From Bryobacterales bacterium (GTDB taxonomy: Bacteria > Acidobacteriota > Terriglobia > Bryobacterales > Bryobacteraceae): a stretch of DNA of 48,179 bases. The stretch lies in assembly GCA_003166865.1 (NCBI GenBank), contig PMUP01000033.1, positions 8,049 to 56,227 on the forward strand, in the 5' to 3' direction. Below are positions 3,240 through 11,996 of the stretch, one piece after another (within the stretch, counting starts at the first letter, position 1; the number at the start of each line of letters is the position of its first letter). Position numbers and translations under genes: made by a program. Under the pieces are notes generated by a model. It was not told the origin of the DNA. It searched no databases and worked only from the letters and a program-made list of their open reading frames with translations.

Positions 3240-4397
3240 CTAACGCTTTTGCTCCTTCGAGTAATCGATGAAGTTCAACTCCTTGCACTTACCCGGATTA
3301 TACGGAGCATCGGCGACCAGGATGGTATCGGACCCCGCGTATTTGCCTTTCAAGAACACAGCATCTTCGGCGACATAGCTGCGCGTGAGCGCCATCTTGT
3401 TCGGATCTAATATGAATCGTTCGACCACGTGCAGCTTATCGCTGTTACGAACTGGGGTGTTCAGGAACCCTGGCAAGAATCCCACGGTATCGACGACCAG
3501 CGTGTCGCCTTCCCAATGTCCGATCGAGTGCCCGGCGCGGCTCGGCTTGATGCTGTTCGGGTGTTCTTGCATGTTCATGTAGATGGTGCGTTTCAACCCG
3601 AGCTGCCCGTACTCGAGCACGATCGTATCTTTGTTCTGAGTAATCCGGTTGACCGGCCCGTCGAAGGCCCAGTCAAAGATGATGCTGGTGGTCTCGCAGC
3701 GGAAACGCGGATTATCTTCGCGCTTGAAATCGGCGGCCGCTTTTTCTCCGGCCTCTGTCAGTTCGGTCCCGCCATAACGCCTCGGCCCGGCGCGGGACAC
3801 GTCCGCGAAGGAGATCGCCGGCCGATCGCCCGGCTTGTATTCCGCCAATTTATCGAGCGGCACTAATCCGCCCCCGATGCCGCGCGCATTGGCCATCACC
3901 AGTTGCACTGGCGCCCAGTCGCCCGATATGTTCGGCTCTCCCGATGGCCGTCGCGTCGGCCGATCCGTCTTTGGCGCGGCGATTGGGCCTCTCACCTCCT
4001 GGATGCCACCTTGTGTCGCCTTGACGTATTGCCCATAGCGGTCCATTCTAGTTCCGTCGGCCGCCATGATGGTCTGCAAGTAACACGAGGCGGGATCGGT
4101 CCGGTTGGGCGAAGCTTCGACTGTGATCTGCTGGCCCACCGGAAAGTTTTCCTTGGTCCAGCCCGAGCGCCGCAGCACGTGAACAGACCTCATTTCGCAT
4201 CGATGGTGACTAACCCCTCCGTCTTTTTCGGTGACGTCAAAGTAGATCCACGAGTGCGGATTGATCATTTCGACGCGTGTGAGCTTGCCGTTGAACTCCA
4301 CGGTCTTGCTCATGTCATACTCCGAGCCGCCGTGATGCGCGAGGGCAAGCGGGGGCAGCGCGAGAAATGCGAGGAAAAGCAGGATGGCCAAAGGCAC
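3240..4397 (-). CDS. Secreted DUF6152-like protein with C-terminal GHWEGD domain
   Basis: No biochemical function is recognised. The open frame extends much further upstream, but the GTG at 4397-4395 fits best: GGAGCGG lies a few bases before it and translation opens with a clean signal peptide, MPLAILLFLAFLALPPLALA, cleaved before HHGG. The product is 385 residues. Residues 20-120 resemble DUF6152 (KTVEFNGKLTRVEMINPHSWIYFDV). The C-terminal half carries GHWEGDTLVVDTVGF and LHVVERF, a block also present in the stand-alone protein encoded at 38001-38762, so this looks like a two-domain fusion. The upstream in-frame extension overlaps the divergent UvrC-like gene and has no credible start. A periplasmic or secreted role is inferred from the signal peptide only. 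Confidence 0.75.
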   Translation of the reverse strand: MPLAILLFLAFLALPPLALAHHGGSEYDMSKTVEFNGKLTRVEMINPHSWIYFDVTEKDGGVSHHRCEMRSVHVLRRSGWTKENFPVGQQITVEASPNRTDPASCYLQTIMAADGTRMDRYGQYVKATQGGIQEVRGPIAAPKTDRPTRRPSGEPNISGDWAPVQLVMANARGIGGGLVPLDKLAEYKPGDRPAISFADVSRAGPRRYGGTELTEAGEKAAADFKREDNPRFRCETTSIIFDWAFDGPVNRITQNKDTIVLEYGQLGLKRTIYMNMQEHPNSIKPSRAGHSIGHWEGDTLVVDTVGFLPGFLNTPVRNSDKLHVVERFILDPNKMALTRSYVAEDAVFLKGKYAGSDTILVADAPYNPGKCKELNFIDYSKEQKR

Positions 4398-4473
4398 GAT
4401 TGTTCCGCTCCAGGTGCGAACCAGTATATACGCGGTGGCCAAGATGAGGGTGAGGGCGCGACACTGGGAACGG

Positions 4474-5595
4474 ATGCAGGTTCCCGATCCAACGATTATC
4501 GAACGCGAACATTTGGATGCAAGCGTCGCCGAAGTTCCCAACGCGGACGCGGTGTTTGTTGTTTGGGCGGGTGATCGTTCGGCGTACCTCGCGAAAACCA
4601 GCATGCTCCGGCGGCGACTGCTACGGATCTTCAAAGCGGACGCTTCGCTGCGGCGGTCGCTGAACCTGCGCGAAGTGGCCACGCGGGTGGAGTATTGGCC
4701 CACGGCGTCGCGGTTCGAATCGATGCTGCTGCACTACGCGCTGGCGCGCCGTTATTTTCCGGAAGACTATTTGCGGCTGATCAAGCTGCGGATGCCGGCC
4801 TACGTCAAACTGATTCTGGCGAACGAATTCCCGCGCACGCAGGTGAGCGCGCGCCTGAGCGCCAGCCGCGCTCTACATTACGGGCCGTTCCAATCGCGGG
4901 CCGCAGCCGAGCTTTTCGAAAACCAGTTCCTGGATCTGTTTCAGATGCGCCGCTGTCAGGAGAATCTGGAGCCGAGCCCGCAGCATCCGGGCTGCATCTA
5001 CGGCGAGATGAATCGATGCCTGCGGCCTTGCCAACAGGTGGTGACGCGCGATGAATATCTGAGCGAGACCAAGCGCGTCGAAGAATTCCTGACCGGTAAC
5101 GGCGGTGCGTTGCTGAGTGTCGCGATGGCCGCGCGCGATCGGCTCAGCGCCGAGATGAACTTCGAGGAAGCTGCGCGCCAGCACAAACAACTGGAGCGCA
5201 TCCAAGCGGTGCTCGCTCTGCGTGGCGATTTGGTTTGCGACGTTGAGCGGTTGTATGGAGTCGCAGTGGCTCCATGCCTTGCGCCTGACAGCGTTCTGCT
5301 GTGGTTCGTGTGCCAAGGGGCGTGGCAAGCGCCGGTGCGATTTACGCTGACGTCGCTCGTATCGTTGGATCAGCGGCTGCGTGAGTTGGTGGCGTCCATC
5401 CAACCTGAGACGGCGCCGCCGCTTGCCGAGAAGCAGGAACATTTGGCGTTGCTTGCGCGCTGGCACTATTCGAGCTGGAGCGATGGAGAATGGATCGGGT
5501 TCCCAGGGCTCGATCAAGTGCCCTATAGGAAGCTGGTGCGCGCCGTTTCGCGGGTGAGGCAGAAGGCGGCGTTAGTGGAGCCCGGCCCGGTCTAG
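4474..5595 (+). CDS. UvrC N-terminal-half homologue (GIY-YIG/UVR protein)
   Basis: Resembles only the N-terminal half of excinuclease subunit UvrC, and in that respect the Cho-type nucleases. 373 residues against roughly 600 for UvrC; no C-terminal RNase H-like nuclease or helix-hairpin-helix part is present. The first 90 residues align with a GIY-YIG nuclease, but the signature is eroded (VFVVW for GIY, AYLAK for YIG); the downstream arginine run MLRRRL and a glutamate (RFESMLL) remain. Next come the UvrC-like EFPRTQVSARL, YGPF and GEMNRCLRPC segments and a UVR motif (AEMNFEEAARQHKQLERI) that in UvrC contacts UvrB. Start ATG 4474 has GGGAA just upstream; ATG 4444 is an alternative. Its 3' end overlaps the convergent transporter gene by 24 bases. 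DNA-repair involvement is inferred from family. Confidence 0.75.
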   Translation: MQVPDPTIIEREHLDASVAEVPNADAVFVVWAGDRSAYLAKTSMLRRRLLRIFKADASLRRSLNLREVATRVEYWPTASRFESMLLHYALARRYFPEDYLRLIKLRMPAYVKLILANEFPRTQVSARLSASRALHYGPFQSRAAAELFENQFLDLFQMRRCQENLEPSPQHPGCIYGEMNRCLRPCQQVVTRDEYLSETKRVEEFLTGNGGALLSVAMAARDRLSAEMNFEEAARQHKQLERIQAVLALRGDLVCDVERLYGVAVAPCLAPDSVLLWFVCQGAWQAPVRFTLTSLVSLDQRLRELVASIQPETAPPLAEKQEHLALLARWHYSSWSDGEWIGFPGLDQVPYRKLVRAVSRVRQKAALVEPGPV

Positions 5596-6450
5596 AAATC
5601 CTTTTGCAACATCGCGCGCGGGGCGGTGCTGGGCGTCCACGGCGTAGTTCATGTTGCGCATTTCCGTGTCGGAGATTTTTCCGGAGAGCTCGGACAGAAT
5701 CGCGCGGAGAGTTGGATACACCATCAGAGCGTCTTCGCGAATAACGATGCAGGCCTGATAGGGCGGAAACACGTGCTTGTCGTCGGTGAGCACGGTAACG
5801 TCCAACTTATTCAAGAGCCCGTCGGTGGTGTTGGCGGCTGCCATGCTCACCTGTTTCTGTTCGAGGGCTTGGTAGAGCAGGCCCAGATCCATGCTCTTGG
5901 GAGCCGCAATCCATTTGATGGCATAAGCCCGATTCAGCGCGCCATACGCGTCGGGACGCGTCAGGAATTCGTAGCCTGCGCCGAGCGCGAATCCGGTTGG
6001 ATCCGCCGCCGCGTCGCTCAAAGTTTGGAGGTGCCGCGCACGGGCGTCTCCGCCGCGAATGGTCATCGCGAAAGAATTCTCGAATCCCAACGGGTCCAGC
6101 CAATCGAGATGAAAGCCGCTCGCATATGCGGCGCGAACCTGCTCCAGAACCACGGCCGGATCGGTGACGCCGCTGCTCTTGAGCACATTGGTGAACGCGG
6201 TGCCGGTGTATTCCGGGTACAGGTCGATGCCGTTGGACAGCAGCGCTTGATGGGCGAGGAGCGTTCCGCCCAGATCCAGCTTGCGTTCCACCGGTTGATG
6301 CAGCCGCGCTTCGATGTGCTGTGCGATGATCTCGCCCAGGATCAATTGCTCGGTGAAATTCTTGGAGCCGACCACGATACGGTTGTGAGCGCCGCAACCG
6401 ACCAGCAGCAGGAGGGGAGCTAGGACACAGAGACGCGTCGTTCGATCCAA
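5572..6450 (-). CDS. OpuC/EgtU-family substrate-binding lipoprotein, candidate ergothioneine or osmolyte receptor
   Basis: Periplasmic or membrane-anchored solute receptor of an ABC importer. 292 residues. The TTG start at 6450 has GGAGG six bases upstream. It opens with a lipoprotein signal ending LVGC (lipidated C19), then the family hallmark VGSKNFTEQLILGEI, followed by DLYPEYTGTAFT and AANTTDGLL, all typical of the glycine-betaine/choline/ergothioneine-binding OpuAC fold. It overlaps the upstream permease gene by 31 bases and is last in the egtB-egtD-transporter operon. In described EgtU proteins the permease and receptor are one polypeptide in this same order; here they are separate. The family is secure; ergothioneine as ligand is inferred from operon context, and betaine or choline remain possible. 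Confidence 0.88.
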   Translation of the reverse strand: MDRTTRLCVLAPLLLLVGCGAHNRIVVGSKNFTEQLILGEIIAQHIEARLHQPVERKLDLGGTLLAHQALLSNGIDLYPEYTGTAFTNVLKSSGVTDPAVVLEQVRAAYASGFHLDWLDPLGFENSFAMTIRGGDARARHLQTLSDAAADPTGFALGAGYEFLTRPDAYGALNRAYAIKWIAAPKSMDLGLLYQALEQKQVSMAAANTTDGLLNKLDVTVLTDDKHVFPPYQACIVIREDALMVYPTLRAILSELSGKISDTEMRNMNYAVDAQHRPARDVAKGFLDRAGLH

Positions 6451-7040
6451 CTGAATCCTCCGTCCGAGAGCAGCGCGAGCAGCGCGGCGGGGATTGCGCC
6501 CGCCAGGATTTGCGTGGTGTCCACGGACGCAATGCCGCGGAAGATGAACACGCCGAGTCCTCCGCCTCCGATGGCGGCCGCGATGGTAGCAGTTCCAATG
6601 GTGGTTACGGTGGCGATGCGCACGCCGGCGAGTATAGTTGGTGCGGCCAGCGGCAGCTCGACTTGCCAGAGCAGTTGACGGCCGGTCATGCCCATGGCGA
6701 TGGCGGATTCTCGCACGGCGGAGTCCACGCCGAGAATGCCCGCGAGGGTGTTGCGAAGAATGGGAAGCAGCGCGTAGAGGACCAGGGCGACGATCGCGGT
6801 CCGTTTGCCGATGCCGCCGATGAACGGGATGGGGATTAAGAACCCGAACAGCGCGAGGCTTGGAATGGTTTGCATCACGTTGGCGAAGCCGAGCAATGGA
6901 GTGCGCAATGCCGCGCGGCGCGTGAGCAGGACGCCGAGGGGAAACCCGGCCGCCACGGCGATTGCCATCGAGACCAGGACCAGGACGACATGCTCGCCGG
7001 TTAACTGCGCCATCTCCTGCAGCAAGTAAGGAGGAATCAT
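6420..7040 (-). CDS. OpuC/EgtU-family ABC transporter permease
   Basis: Inner-membrane channel subunit of the importer. 206 residues with about five or six hydrophobic helices, the normal size for a ProW/OpuCB-type permease. The BPD_transp_1 signature is visible: VRESAIAMGMTGRQLLWQVELPLAAPTILAGVR, the EAA loop that docks on the ATPase, and before it NVMQTIPSLALFGFLIPIPFIG. The ATG at 7040 lies 10 bases after the ATPase stop, and its own 3' end runs 31 bases into the receptor gene, so the three transport genes are translationally linked. The polypeptide ends after the last helix (SWIERRVSVS) with no fused solute-binding domain, unlike EgtU of Streptococcus or Helicobacter. Confidence 0.92.
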   Translation of the reverse strand: MIPPYLLQEMAQLTGEHVVLVLVSMAIAVAAGFPLGVLLTRRAALRTPLLGFANVMQTIPSLALFGFLIPIPFIGGIGKRTAIVALVLYALLPILRNTLAGILGVDSAVRESAIAMGMTGRQLLWQVELPLAAPTILAGVRIATVTTIGTATIAAAIGGGGLGVFIFRGIASVDTTQILAGAIPAALLALLSDGGFSWIERRVSVS

Positions 7041-7050
7041 GGCTTCTCGA

Positions 7051-7776
7051 TCATAAAGTCGACAAGAAGGCGCGCGCTTCCGGGCCGCTCGATTTTACGA
7101 ACTCGGCTGGTGTTGCCAGAACTTCCAGTCTGCCACGGTGGAGCAGAGCGATTTCGGTGCCCAGGCGCAGAGCTTCCCGCACGTCATGGGTGACGAAGAT
7201 GGATGTCTTCCGCAACCGGTCGCGCAGCGCCAGGAATTGATCCTGCAGCTCCACGCGCGTTACCGGATCCAGCGCGCCGAAGGGTTCGTCGAAAAGCAGG
7301 AGCTTTGGTTCGGCCGCGAGAGCGCGCGCGACGCCCACACGCTGGCGCTGTCCTCCCGAGAGCTGGCGCGGATAGCGATCGAGAAACTGCGCCGGTTCGA
7401 GGCCAACTTGATCGAGCAGCTCGGACACGCGCGCGGCAATGCGGTCTGGCGGCCAGCCTTTCAGGCGCGGCACCAGCGCGACGTTTTCGCCGATGGTGAA
7501 GTGTGGAAACAGGCCGACTTCTTGAATGACATAACCGATACTACGCCGGAGCTGGATGAGATCCCAATCGGTAGTGGCGCGGTCGTCCACCAGAACCTGG
7601 CCGCCGGAAGGAAACAGGAGGCCGTTCAGCATCTTCAGCGCCGTGGTTTTCCCGGAGCCGCTGCGGCCGAGCAGCACCAGCGTGCAGCCCTCCACGATGC
7701 GTAGGTTCAGATTGTCGAGGACGAGATTGCCGCCGATGCAGTAACAAACGTCGCGAAATTCCAGGGTGACACTCAA
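7051..7776 (-). CDS. OpuC/EgtV-family ABC transporter ATP-binding protein
   Basis: Energises the adjacent importer by ATP hydrolysis on the cytoplasmic face. 241 residues with a complete ABC core: Walker A GRSGSGKT at 37-44, Q-loop Q85, signature LSGGQ at 139-143, Walker B LLLFDE at 159-164, and the H-loop in FVTHD. There is no C-terminal CBS pair, which many OpuA/ProV ATPases carry for osmotic sensing; this makes an osmoregulated role less obvious. Translation starts at TTG 7776, overlapping the egtD stop as TTGA, with no clear Shine-Dalgarno, so re-initiation after egtD is likely. Third gene of the five-gene operon. Confidence 0.92.
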   Translation of the reverse strand: MSVTLEFRDVCYCIGGNLVLDNLNLRIVEGCTLVLLGRSGSGKTTALKMLNGLLFPSGGQVLVDDRATTDWDLIQLRRSIGYVIQEVGLFPHFTIGENVALVPRLKGWPPDRIAARVSELLDQVGLEPAQFLDRYPRQLSGGQRQRVGVARALAAEPKLLLFDEPFGALDPVTRVELQDQFLALRDRLRKTSIFVTHDVREALRLGTEIALLHRGRLEVLATPAEFVKSSGPEARAFLSTL

Positions 7777-8714
7777 CTAATGGTCCAAAGATTTTCCGCG
7801 AAGGGCCAATCCCGGTCGACCCACTGGCCTTCGACGCGGAACCCGGTCTGCTCCGCCATCGCGTCCAGTTCTTGAAGCTGGAATTTGTGCGAGGACTCGG
7901 TCCAAATCGTCTCGTCCGCGCGGAAAGTTACCGAGAGATCAGCTTCCGCGATGAACGCGGTCTGATTCAAACGCGAGCGGAGGTGCATTTCGATCCGGCG
8001 GTGTTCCTCGTTCCAGCGCGCCTGATGCTCGAAGTCGCGCAGTTGGAAATCGCCGCCAAGCTCTCGATTGATGCGCCCGAGCAGGTTGAGATTGAAAGCG
8101 CCAGTGACGCCGGTGGGATCGTCGTAGGCCACCAGCATGCGCTCGGGTTCCTTCACCAGGTCGGCGCCGATCAGCAGCGCGTCGCCGGGAAGCAGAGCGC
8201 GGCGCAGATCGCGCAGAAATTCCACGGCGCAAGGGCGCTCGAAGTTGCCAATGGTGCTGCCGAGGAACAGCACTAGAAGCGCTTCACCGGCCTCGCGTTC
8301 GGCGGTGGCGCGCGCCATCCCGTCCAGATAAGACTGAACCAGCGGATGCACGTCGGCGATGTCGGACAAATCGCGCTCGCAACGCGCCAGTGCGTCGGCC
8401 GATACATCGATGGGATAGTAGCGCAGGGGACCTTGATGCGGAGCCGCGCCAATGGCTTGCAGAAGATGGCGAGTCTTTTTGCCCACTCCACTGCCCAACT
8501 CGATTACGGCGGCGCGAGCCGGAATCAACCTGGCAATATCGCTGGCATGACGGCGCAGCAAGCGCTCGTCGGCGCGAGTCAGGCCATATTCGGGTAAGTG
8601 CGTGATGGCCTCGAAGAGCGAACTGCCCAATTCGTCGTAGAGATACTTCGAATGCAGCTCTTTTCGAGGCTTGGCGAGGCCGAGGCGCACGTCGCACACG
8701 AATTCGCGCGTCAT
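7773..8714 (-). CDS. egtD: L-histidine N(alpha)-methyltransferase EgtD
   Basis: Trimethylates the alpha-amino group of histidine to hercynine using three S-adenosylmethionine molecules, the first step of ergothioneine synthesis. From the chosen ATG the protein is 313 residues. Family hallmarks: the N-terminal LHSKYLYDELGSSLFEAITHLPEY motif, SAM-binding VIELGSGVGKK (about 70-80), LFLGSTIGNF, a GADLVKEPERMLVAYDD block, and FNLNLLGRINRELGGDF. ATG 8714 was chosen because family alignment starts soon after it and it avoids extensive overlap; an in-frame ATG at 8777 would add 21 residues and overlap egtB by 35 bases, and neither has a strong ribosome-binding site. It directly follows egtB and its stop overlaps the ATPase start. 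Confidence 0.93.
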   Translation of the reverse strand: MTREFVCDVRLGLAKPRKELHSKYLYDELGSSLFEAITHLPEYGLTRADERLLRRHASDIARLIPARAAVIELGSGVGKKTRHLLQAIGAAPHQGPLRYYPIDVSADALARCERDLSDIADVHPLVQSYLDGMARATAEREAGEALLVLFLGSTIGNFERPCAVEFLRDLRRALLPGDALLIGADLVKEPERMLVAYDDPTGVTGAFNLNLLGRINRELGGDFQLRDFEHQARWNEEHRRIEMHLRSRLNQTAFIAEADLSVTFRADETIWTESSHKFQLQELDAMAEQTGFRVEGQWVDRDWPFAENLWTIS

Positions 8715-8742
8715 GCTTGGGACCGCAGCGCTGTCCCCGGTT

Positions 8743-10026
8743 TTAGTCTTCGGCCACTCGAAAACTTGCGTAGACATAGGGATAATCGGGCCGGAACCAA
8801 TTGCGGAACGAACGGCGCAACATGCAGGCGGCCGTCACGGGCGACCCACCTTTCAGTACGTAGTGTTTTTCATCGAAGAAGTCTTTGGAGTACCCCGGAT
8901 AAAATGGCAGCGGCTGAAATCCGGCAAACGGGCCGAACTTCGTGGCTGTCCACTCCCAGCCGTTTCCGACAAGCTGGGAGACGCCGCAGGCGCTGTCACC
9001 CGCCGGATGGGCATCCACGTCGAGCGGATCCCATTGACGGAAATCAAAATTGCCTCGTTTCGAGCTCGGCTCGGCATGGCCCCACGGATAAGGACGCTCC
9101 GCGAGTCCGCTTGTTTCATGGGCAGGCGTTTCGCCAGTGGAGGAGGTCCCATAGGCCGCGCGATGAAACTGAGGTTCGGTGGGCAACTGCTTTCCAGCCC
9201 ATTGGGCGTAGGCGCTGGCTTCGGCGTGCGTGACATACACGGGCGCGTTGACCGGGAGCGGGACTTCGGAAAACATCCCGCGATAGAGCCAGCGCGCACG
9301 TTGTTGAGATCTGCCCTGTGTCCAGAAATGCGGCGGGGCACCGCCATCGCCCACGAAATCCAGATACTGTCCGTTGGTGACCTTGTACTTGCCGATGCGA
9401 AAGCCGGGGACTTCCACCTGGTGCTCGGCGAACTCGTTGTCCCAACCGAACTTGCCGTGTTTTTGTCCCAGGGTCGCAAAGCCGGGAGCGATCTGGATCA
9501 TAGCCGCCGCAAGCGGCCCATGCGAGGAATAGGCCAGTGGCATCGCGCCCGAGGCCTTCTGCTCATACGGCAGGTTGTGCAGCATGTAAGCCAAGGTCTC
9601 GCCGTGCATCAGCCGGTGTTCGAGGGCGACTTGAATGACTTGTGCCGGGACGATCTGTTCGGACGATTGCTCGATCAACTCGTCCAGGATGCCGCGGATG
9701 CGCCGGCTATAGCTTCGAACCTCGTCCACCCGTGGCCAGTCGGCCGGCTCGTCCGAAGCCGCTTGCCCAACCGGAGGGTCAATGCCGAATTCGAAGAGCT
9801 TGTCGAATGTGGGGTGAAACGACGGAACGTCCAGGGTTTTTCGCGCGATCAGGTTCCAGTCGAACGTTTCCAGGTGTCCCAGGTAGAAAATGAGGCGGTG
9901 CCGCTCGGGAATCGGCCGCGCGTAAATGGCCTCGGCCTTTAGCAGGCTGAAAACATAGTCGGTTAGTTTGCGAGCGGAATCTAACCGTTCCTGGAGCGCC
10001 CTGCTCGCCACCGTTGCAGTCGACAT
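8743..10026 (-). CDS. egtB: Ergothioneine synthase EgtB (hercynine oxygen-dependent sulfoxide synthase)
   Basis: Non-haem iron enzyme joining hercynine to cysteine or gamma-glutamylcysteine with O2 to give the sulfoxide precursor of ergothioneine. 427 residues. The N-terminal DinB-like domain supplies the 3-His iron site: H51 in YLGHLETFDW, and H137 and H141 in EHRLMHGETLAYML. The C-terminal formylglycine-generating-enzyme (FGE) domain starts near 175 and shows KYKVTNGQYLDFV, YVTHAEASAYAQWAGKQLPTE, GNGWEWTATKF and RRSFRNWF. The ATG has GGAGG seven bases upstream. No egtA or egtC is near, which would fit direct use of cysteine as in the Chloracidobacterium enzyme, but the window is too small to exclude them elsewhere. 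Product transport is probably provided by the downstream genes. Confidence 0.93.
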   Translation of the reverse strand: MSTATVASRALQERLDSARKLTDYVFSLLKAEAIYARPIPERHRLIFYLGHLETFDWNLIARKTLDVPSFHPTFDKLFEFGIDPPVGQAASDEPADWPRVDEVRSYSRRIRGILDELIEQSSEQIVPAQVIQVALEHRLMHGETLAYMLHNLPYEQKASGAMPLAYSSHGPLAAAMIQIAPGFATLGQKHGKFGWDNEFAEHQVEVPGFRIGKYKVTNGQYLDFVGDGGAPPHFWTQGRSQQRARWLYRGMFSEVPLPVNAPVYVTHAEASAYAQWAGKQLPTEPQFHRAAYGTSSTGETPAHETSGLAERPYPWGHAEPSSKRGNFDFRQWDPLDVDAHPAGDSACGVSQLVGNGWEWTATKFGPFAGFQPLPFYPGYSKDFFDEKHYVLKGGSPVTAACMLRRSFRNWFRPDYPYVYASFRVAED

Positions 10027-11328: not shown

Positions 11329-11715
11329 TTACGGCAGCGGGTAGAGGGCGAGTTGGGTCATTGGAAAATCCTTGCGATTGTCCGTCATCAACACCAGATG
11401 ATGAGCCAGCGCGGTGGCCGCGATGATGAGATCGACGACGCCTAACGTTCGCCCCTTCTTGGCCCATTCATTCTTGAGCAAACCCGCATAACGCGCCAAT
11501 TGCGCGTCCAGTTCATAATGCTCCAGCCTGTCCAGAAAGCGCTCCGTGAAGGCGAACTCCCTCGGACGGATGCCAGCGTAGATCTCTGTCAGAGTTACCA
11601 CGGAACAGGCGAGCGTGTCGCCGGCTTCGACCAACGACCCGAGCAACTGCCAGCGTCCGCGTTTTTGATTTATCGCGTCGATGATGACCGACGTGTCCAG
11701 AAGATAAATCGCCAT
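11329..11715 (-). CDS. vapC: VapC-type PIN-domain ribonuclease toxin
   Basis: Endoribonuclease toxin of a type II toxin-antitoxin pair, probably cleaving tRNA or another RNA when freed from its antitoxin. 128 residues, standard for VapC. The PIN acidic residues are present: D7 (LLDTSVII), E44 (TLTEIYAG), D95 (GVVDLIIAATAL) and D112 (LMTDNRKDF). The start codon overlaps the antitoxin stop by one base (TAATG), typical of co-translated TA pairs. All catalytic residues look intact, so I take it as active. Confidence 0.9.
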   Translation of the reverse strand: MAIYLLDTSVIIDAINQKRGRWQLLGSLVEAGDTLACSVVTLTEIYAGIRPREFAFTERFLDRLEHYELDAQLARYAGLLKNEWAKKGRTLGVVDLIIAATALAHHLVLMTDNRKDFPMTQLALYPLP

Positions 11716-11996
11716 TACGTGCGGTCGCGCTGCTCTTGAATCCTTTGGAAGCGAGCTTCGCTTTCAGCGCGCATCTTGCGGATCCAAGCCGCGGCTCCGT
11801 CCTTTAGCTCCGGATGATCTTGGTCCTTCCAAATCGGCTCTTTACGTTTGAAGAGCTGCAGGAGTTTTTGGCGTTTTATCTCGCGCTTGGCCAGATCCGC
11901 GAGAAAGGCGCTCCTGCCCCGCGAGCCGGCGATCTTGTCAATCTCGCGCACAAGATCTTCAGGCAGGACGACGTGGGCTCTCTTGGTTGATGGCAT
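11715..11996 (-). CDS. vapB: Ribbon-helix-helix antitoxin of the VapBC pair
   Basis: Binds and inhibits the adjacent PIN toxin and probably represses its own promoter. 93 residues. The N-terminus shows a ribbon-helix-helix pattern (RAHVVLPEDLVREIDKIAGSRGRSAFLADLAKREI), giving the DNA-binding dimer; the C-terminal half is charged and helical (AAWIRKMRAESEARFQRIQEQRDRT), the expected toxin-binding tail. First gene of the pair. An in-frame upstream extension (to 12058) is possible only in another frame and is not supported. Confidence 0.85.
   Translation of the reverse strand: MPSTKRAHVVLPEDLVREIDKIAGSRGRSAFLADLAKREIKRQKLLQLFKRKEPIWKDQDHPELKDGAAAWIRKMRAESEARFQRIQEQRDRT

Follow-up and report, generated by a model that had tools for sequence, protein, structure and literature searches.

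The stretch analysed here, referred to below as the window, comprises 48,179 nucleotides of contig PMUP01000033.1 from a Bryobacterales bacterium (assembly GCA_003166865.1), and the subject of this work is a block of five consecutive minus-strand genes within it, encoding an EgtB-like sulfoxide synthase, the histidine methyltransferase EgtD, and the ATPase, permease and receptor lipoprotein of an ABC importer (Table 1). In the open reading frame (ORF) listing, with distances computed from mechanical ORF starts, egtB and egtD overlap by 35 bases and egtD and the ATPase gene by 4, the ATPase and permease genes are separated by 10 bases, and the permease and receptor genes overlap by 31. These coordinates bear out an earlier sequence-only reading, which had described five consecutive genes overlapping, or separated, by at most 35 bases. 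The search within the genus covered five genomes (the window's own and four others; G000-G004), and all five have the same block, in the order egtB-egtD-ATPase-permease-receptor. Being kept within the genus, with a linkage that recurs far more widely, the arrangement is beyond chance.

Table 1. Coordinates of the five-gene block, of neighbouring genes in the window and of features at related loci (L numbers).
Feature	Coordinates	Strand	Length	Remarks
Five-gene block	window 5572-10026	minus		
egtB-like sulfoxide synthase	window 8743-10026	minus	427 aa	nearest solved relative EgtB-IV; HxxxHxE motif (H137, H141) and H51
egtD, L-histidine N-alpha-methyltransferase	window 7773-8777	minus	334 aa	TIGR03438 above cut-off
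ABC ATPase, ProV/OpuC type	window 7051-7776	minus	241 aa	PF00005; CBS domain not found
ABC permease (BPD)	window 6420-7040	minus	206 aa	PF00528; own gene here, receptor-fused in more distant relatives
Receptor lipoprotein	window 5572-6450	minus	292 aa	PF04069 OpuAC
UvrC-like gene	window 4384-5595			
Two small genes	window 11329-11996			
Divergent PF10017 methyltransferase gene	L155:7044-8018			
Divergent PF10017 methyltransferase gene	L161:7524-8558			
Divergent PF10017 methyltransferase gene	L164:7457-8518			
Divergent PF10017 methyltransferase gene	L066:3261-4259			
F420 genes running into importer genes	L157:2879-8387			
Genes 3' of importer	L161:11071-12668			

The EgtD protein matches PF10017 and scores 318 bits against TIGR03438, above the NCBIfam cut-off of 290.9. 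The EgtB protein carries PF03781 and a DinB_2 stretch just below the Pfam cut-off (22.4 against 24.8), and its match to the solved EgtB-IV is at 8.7e-51; its three histidines H51, H137 and H141 are presumably metal-binding. As judged from sequence, the label egtB is correct at the level of the sulfoxide-synthase superfamily, to which it is limited because the scores fall below all three curated cut-offs, namely those for EgtB (TIGR03440, 192 of 360 bits), the OvoA N-terminal part (221 of 400) and SenA (196 of 420).

The receptor matches PF04069 (OpuAC) with 178 bits against a cut-off of 21.2, and its lipoprotein-type cysteine is invariant in 20 aligned sequences. The window genome holds this single PF04069 receptor and gave no match to a BCCT carrier, and the Pfam search found no CBS domain on the window ATPase, as the sequence-only reading had claimed. 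Among natural receptors of known ligand in the listed matches, EgtU of Helicobacter pylori scored best (7e-52), with ProX at 8e-40 and pneumococcal EgtUC at 1e-35 to 1e-37. The AlphaFold2 model of the receptor is confident (mean pLDDT 92) and resembles structures of EgtU, Archaeoglobus fulgidus ProX, OpuBC/OpuCC and YehZ with Z of about 31-37, against Z under 20 for lactococcal OpuAC and 1r9l ProX. By its PF04069 match and subgroup fold, the receptor belongs to the OpuC/ProX-type quaternary-amine importers. Tree placement relative to the EgtU and ProX references was not used, the references being on long branches and the deep forks weakly supported.

The egtBD-transporter clusters that the sequence-only reading had proposed to look for in related genomes do recur. 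Named species genomes were scanned with the patterns SKNFTEQ and MDLGLLY plus similarity, and the best 80 of 580 confirmed receptor candidates, a set whose uniformity is partly due to selection, were assessed within the stretch around each receptor, where short contigs can hide neighbours. Among these named loci, 35 are linked to egt genes (28 to egtB and egtD, 5 to egtD only, 2 to egtB only) and 3 to a divergent methyltransferase; when loci with less than 4 kb on either side are set aside, 19 of the remaining 42 are linked and 2 have the divergent methyltransferase. A second search covered 121 genomes, the window's own and relatives (receptor E up to 1e-10, EgtD E up to 1e-20), and returned a receptor match in 74, an EgtD match in 70 and both in 57, the two lying within 10 kb of each other in 26 of these 57 and within 3 kb in 22. 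With taxon labels taken from record titles, which for metagenome bins may be wrong, seven of the nine loci titled Nitrospira, Nitrospirae or Nitrospiraceae in the best 80 are linked, the other two being on contigs under 5 kb; the sole Gemmatimonadetes-titled locus (L172) is also linked, and no egt gene appears in the stretch around L169, L177 or L179, whose titles are cyanobacterial.

At least four gene orders join importer and egtBD. The biosynthetic genes lie ahead of the importer here and in many relatives, follow it at L051, L133 and L144 and, with fused importers, at L074-L076, converge with it at L138, L139, L142, L143 and L146, and diverge from it at L136, L152 and L087; these differing orders imply that the linkage was rebuilt more than once. 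Parsimony on a 96-row receptor tree, built quickly, counts 21 changes between linked and unlinked states, a number inflated by short contigs scored as unlinked. One genome (G066) has egtB-egtD-ATPase-permease together on contig C113 (L039) and its only receptor match on another contig, C301 (L096), and the receptor genes of L117, L141, L171 and L184 are without a permease match or an ATPase match of at least 250 bits in the stretch.

Presence and absence of the genes follow the same association. Among the 121 genomes, EgtD accompanied a strong importer match in 45 of 51 cases and occurred in 25 of the 70 other genomes; across a sample of 199 genomes from the phylum, it was found in 44 of the 55 with an importer and 29 of the 144 lacking one. 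Where the stretch around an importer shows no egt neighbour, the genome still has EgtD elsewhere in 31 of 42 cases. The earlier proposal that an EgtU/OpuC-type importer is tied to ergothioneine genes thus holds by position as well as by presence and absence.

The window departs from the fused permease-receptor chain with separate ATPase that is typical of EgtU/EgtUV, its permease and receptor being two genes. In several other families of the phylum permease and receptor form one ORF, permease first, as the sequence-only reading had given the order for EgtU, and because the same family occurs fused in other Acidobacteriota, in some cases beside egtD, the earlier term 'split EgtU' is apt as a description of architecture. 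At L197, L198 and L199 the fused ORF directly follows egtD and the ATPase gene, with no EgtB profile match over 60 bits within 15 kb and only weak EgtB matches (66 to 107 bits) elsewhere in these genomes, a search that other EgtB types could escape; at L074-L076 a fused importer adjoins both egtB and egtD. A second fused type, with a Tyr cage, lies near egtBD at L087 (overlapping ORFs), L088 (1.8 kb), L089 (4.8 kb) and L090 (8.9 kb), its receptor part being ahead of the permease part at L087 and L088, so that egtBD has acquired an association with more than one OpuC/EgtU-type importer.

On balance, and with modest confidence, we consider that the five genes probably form one operon making and importing a histidine betaine, the importer being a split, producer-linked relative of EgtU. 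To judge from gene context, it is most likely a dedicated importer of the betaine made by the pathway, ergothioneine being the most likely ligand and hercynine a possible one, placed second on account of loci at which egtD occurs without egtB. The five genes would be transcribed together; by their families, EgtD would trimethylate histidine to hercynine and EgtB would add the sulfur. In the periplasm, a histidine-derived betaine (ergothioneine most likely) would be bound by the receptor lipoprotein, and the permease and ATPase would then import it at the expense of ATP. Such a cell would be a producer that also takes back its own leaked ergothioneine and exploits that released by fungi and neighbours in soil; recapture or scavenging of this kind would be the simplest benefit.

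Several findings, including some on the binding pocket given below, weigh against this interpretation. No egt gene lies in the stretch at 42 of the best 80 named loci, nor at 21 of the 42 in the subset with at least 4 kb on both sides. An EgtD match is absent from 11 of the 42 genomes with unlinked importers, mostly drafts of unstated completeness, and from 11 of the 55 importer genomes of the phylum sample; the Fisher probabilities of the association (p = 3e-9 for the 121 genomes, 7e-15 for the 199) ignore kinship and overstate its strength. A search for EgtE gave none above cut-off, only nine weak matches, and the same test matches 14 of 14 control genomes. As a family matching all 14 controls, EgtE was dropped as uninformative proof of the end product; with the C-S lyase not assignable, the product in this organism is predicted from EgtB and EgtD.

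Other gene contexts also count here. At four loci (L155, L161, L164, L066) a divergent PF10017 methyltransferase, without the EgtD stretch 'YLYDxxGSxLF...LPEY', replaces egtD in the same operon order, and the three of these genomes that were searched (those of L155, L161 and L164) gave no match to EgtD or EgtB; the product of the divergent enzyme is possibly a different amino-acid betaine. Such loci would be expected of a broader importer of methylated amino acids whose ligand is told by the neighbouring methyltransferase, ergothioneine or hercynine beside EgtD and another betaine beside the divergent enzymes. With only four loci concerned and a pocket that is hardly altered in them, we regard this explanation as very improbable. 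At L161, a gene for an MbnB/TglH/ChrH-type enzyme (PF05114) and one for a protein without Pfam match lie 3' of the importer.

Six further importers with the same pocket (L157, L159, L165, L181, L182, L186) are preceded by a gene of the F420-oxidoreductase family, and five of the six close an F420-biosynthesis block. In L157 and similar stretches of L159, L181, L182 and L186, the F420 genes (CofH_C, F420 ligase, CofC, CofD, radical SAM and F420 oxidoreductase, by Pfam on L157 and by similarity in the others) run directly into the importer genes, and L165 shares only the last gene of this stretch. Histidine biosynthesis upstream of some unlinked importers was considered and rejected, the genes being those of F420 biosynthesis. 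Even so, each of the six genomes matches both EgtD and EgtB elsewhere.

The F420 contexts agree with an alternative in which the importer is an ordinary OpuC/ProX carrier of compatible solutes (glycine betaine, choline, carnitine) that lies near egtBD for reasons of regulation or methyl supply. The PF04069 OpuAC fold and the receptor's position as the only one of its kind in the genome are in keeping with this, as is the fact that its matches include choline and betaine receptors; the top match overall, in sequence (7.6e-57) and also in fold, consists of engineered sensors for acetylcholine, nicotine and related compounds, which we take to derive from an OpuBC-type receptor. Fold comparison was rejected as a discriminator of ligands, since ergothioneine, betaine and choline receptors score alike. 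The window's F32, Y81 and F123 are as in A. fulgidus ProX, but two of the four cage tyrosines of ProX are replaced, by Phe in all 80 best named loci and by Asn in 71 of them (partly alike by selection), the ATPase lacks a CBS domain, and a carrier of ordinary solutes would leave the linkage to a histidine methyltransferase unexplained. We therefore consider this alternative rather unlikely.

The pocket was compared through the contacts of pneumococcal EgtU (K242, I243, G244, T274, T275, F293, T296, Y337, N339, Y341, E375, R379, Y419 and Y443; excerpts of PMC9732360), which align with K30, N31, F32, G62, T63, Y81, T84, F123, N125, F127, E161, R165, N207 and Y231 of the window. The resulting strings are KIGTTFTYNYERYY for pneumococcal EgtU, KPSGTYTFNYDRFY for H. 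pylori EgtU, KPFGTYTFDYERYY for A. fulgidus ProX and KNFGTYTFNFERNY for the window, which matches none of the three references. According to the same excerpts, G244 and a Tyr-to-Phe switch (F293 with Y337) determine the specificity of Streptococcus pneumoniae EgtU, Y341 and Y419 belong to its cage and bridge a water network around the thioimidazole, and a cage of four tyrosines is a trait of the AfProX family (PMC9732360). The window shows F32, Y81 and F123 in place of the pneumococcal signature G244, F293 and Y337, and retains the contacts K242, T296, N339, E375 and R379 as K30, T84, N125, E161 and R165. Where ProX has four tyrosines the window has Y, F, N and Y, and in having Phe for Y341 and Asn for Y419 it differs from all three references. 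The signature is a weak test, because H. pylori EgtU, for which an ergothioneine complex has been solved (8dp7), also lacks G244 and F293.

These substitutions are widely shared. Of the 80 best named loci, all have Phe for Y341 and 71 have Asn for Y419 (the others Ser in 7, Ala in 1, Asp in 1); the corresponding counts for 65 loci of relatives, other types included, are 49 and 44. The F at the G244 position, partly selected for by the scan pattern SKNFTEQ, and the Y at the F293 position are each found in 80 of 80, and among the 65 loci of relatives in 56 and 61, respectively. Linked and unlinked receptors have the same pocket letters, which, showing no difference, were not used as evidence of substrate. 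So far as the letters go, this is a further pocket type whose ligand is not readable from them, because Y341 and Y419 are cage and water-bridging residues in pneumococcal EgtU. The comparison of ergothioneine- with betaine-contacting residues that the sequence-only reading had proposed thus speaks neither for EgtU, G244, F293 and Y337 being absent, nor for betaine, ProX tyrosines having become Phe and Asn; that reading is supported in part, by linkage, co-occurrence, split architecture and the CBS-free ATPase.

Replacement of the water-bridging side chains Y419 and Y341 would also suit an importer that takes up hercynine (histidine betaine) or another intermediate for EgtB to sulfurise, with ergothioneine as a poor ligand. 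EgtD rather than EgtB is the constant neighbour at some loci, as in the egtD-ATPase-fused importer order of L197-L199, and L137, L154 and L180 have egtD without egtB. A cell with its own EgtD, however, would hardly need hercynine from outside, 28 of the 33 best-80 named loci that show egtD also have egtB, and the affinity of pneumococcal EgtU for hercynine is very low (600 per molar; excerpts of PMC9732360), so that we judge this alternative unlikely, if worth keeping in view.

Outside the block, the UvrC-like gene, whose protein is weakly similar to UvrC-type N-terminal parts (below all cut-offs), is convergent with the receptor gene and overlaps its end, and the two small genes (Table 1) resemble, by eye, a PIN-domain toxin-antitoxin pair.

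A wider proposal, which we offer tentatively and with some doubt, is that the split, egtBD-linked importer represents a widespread EgtU-like family of producers (Acidobacteriota and Nitrospirota- and Gemmatimonadota-labelled contigs), split as well as fused and undescribed in the open literature searched, with a Phe/Asn cage for Tyr/Tyr and an EgtD-type neighbour that predicts the ligand, including unknown betaines of divergent methyltransferases, and that producers recycle and trade ergothioneine in soil. A producer-linked importer would make ergothioneine a recovered or shared good in soil communities, a maker being also a collector; substrates across the large OpuC/ProX importer family could then be assigned by a genomic rule, and another ergothioneine pocket chemistry could be set against EgtU. 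There is possible relevance to fermentation, where product re-uptake is suspected: excerpts of PMC12689799 mention suspected import by betaine carriers in Corynebacterium glutamicum engineered for ergothioneine.

Excerpts of PMC9732360 place ergothioneine importers in S. pneumoniae and other Firmicutes and describe pneumococcal EgtU in a bacterium unable to make ergothioneine; an importer linked to a producer contrasts with one described as serving such bacteria. No description of an importer beside egtBD was found in the open literature searched, which takes in few subscription papers and not the one on H. pylori EgtUV, so that this is weak evidence of novelty. H. pylori is a second known source, its structure titles naming EgtU (EgtUV; 8dp6, 8dp7). 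The H. pylori protein shares the PF04069-type receptor with 38-39% identity and has the same letters at nine of the fourteen pocket positions (K, G, T, Y, T, F, N, R, Y), the five differences, H. pylori first, being P/N, S/F, Y/F, D/E and F/N; we take it to be one fused chain, and H. pylori to be a non-producer. EgtU of S. pneumoniae (EgtUBC; 7txk, 7txl) shares the fold and, besides the five contacts retained above, T275 and Y443 (all seven: K242, T275, T296, N339, E375, R379, Y443), whereas I243 is changed to N, G244 to F, T274 to G, F293 to Y, Y337 and Y341 to F and Y419 to N, and the chain that is fused there is split in the window. A. fulgidus ProX likewise shares the fold, and E161 and R165 in addition to F32, Y81 and F123 are as in ProX, which has Tyr at the positions of window F127 and N207. 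The fold is shared also with Bacillus subtilis OpuBC/OpuCC, receptors for betaine and choline. On the biosynthetic side, the window resembles the EgtB-IV/EgtD route, its EgtB being nearest to EgtB-IV and its EgtD scoring above the family cut-off.

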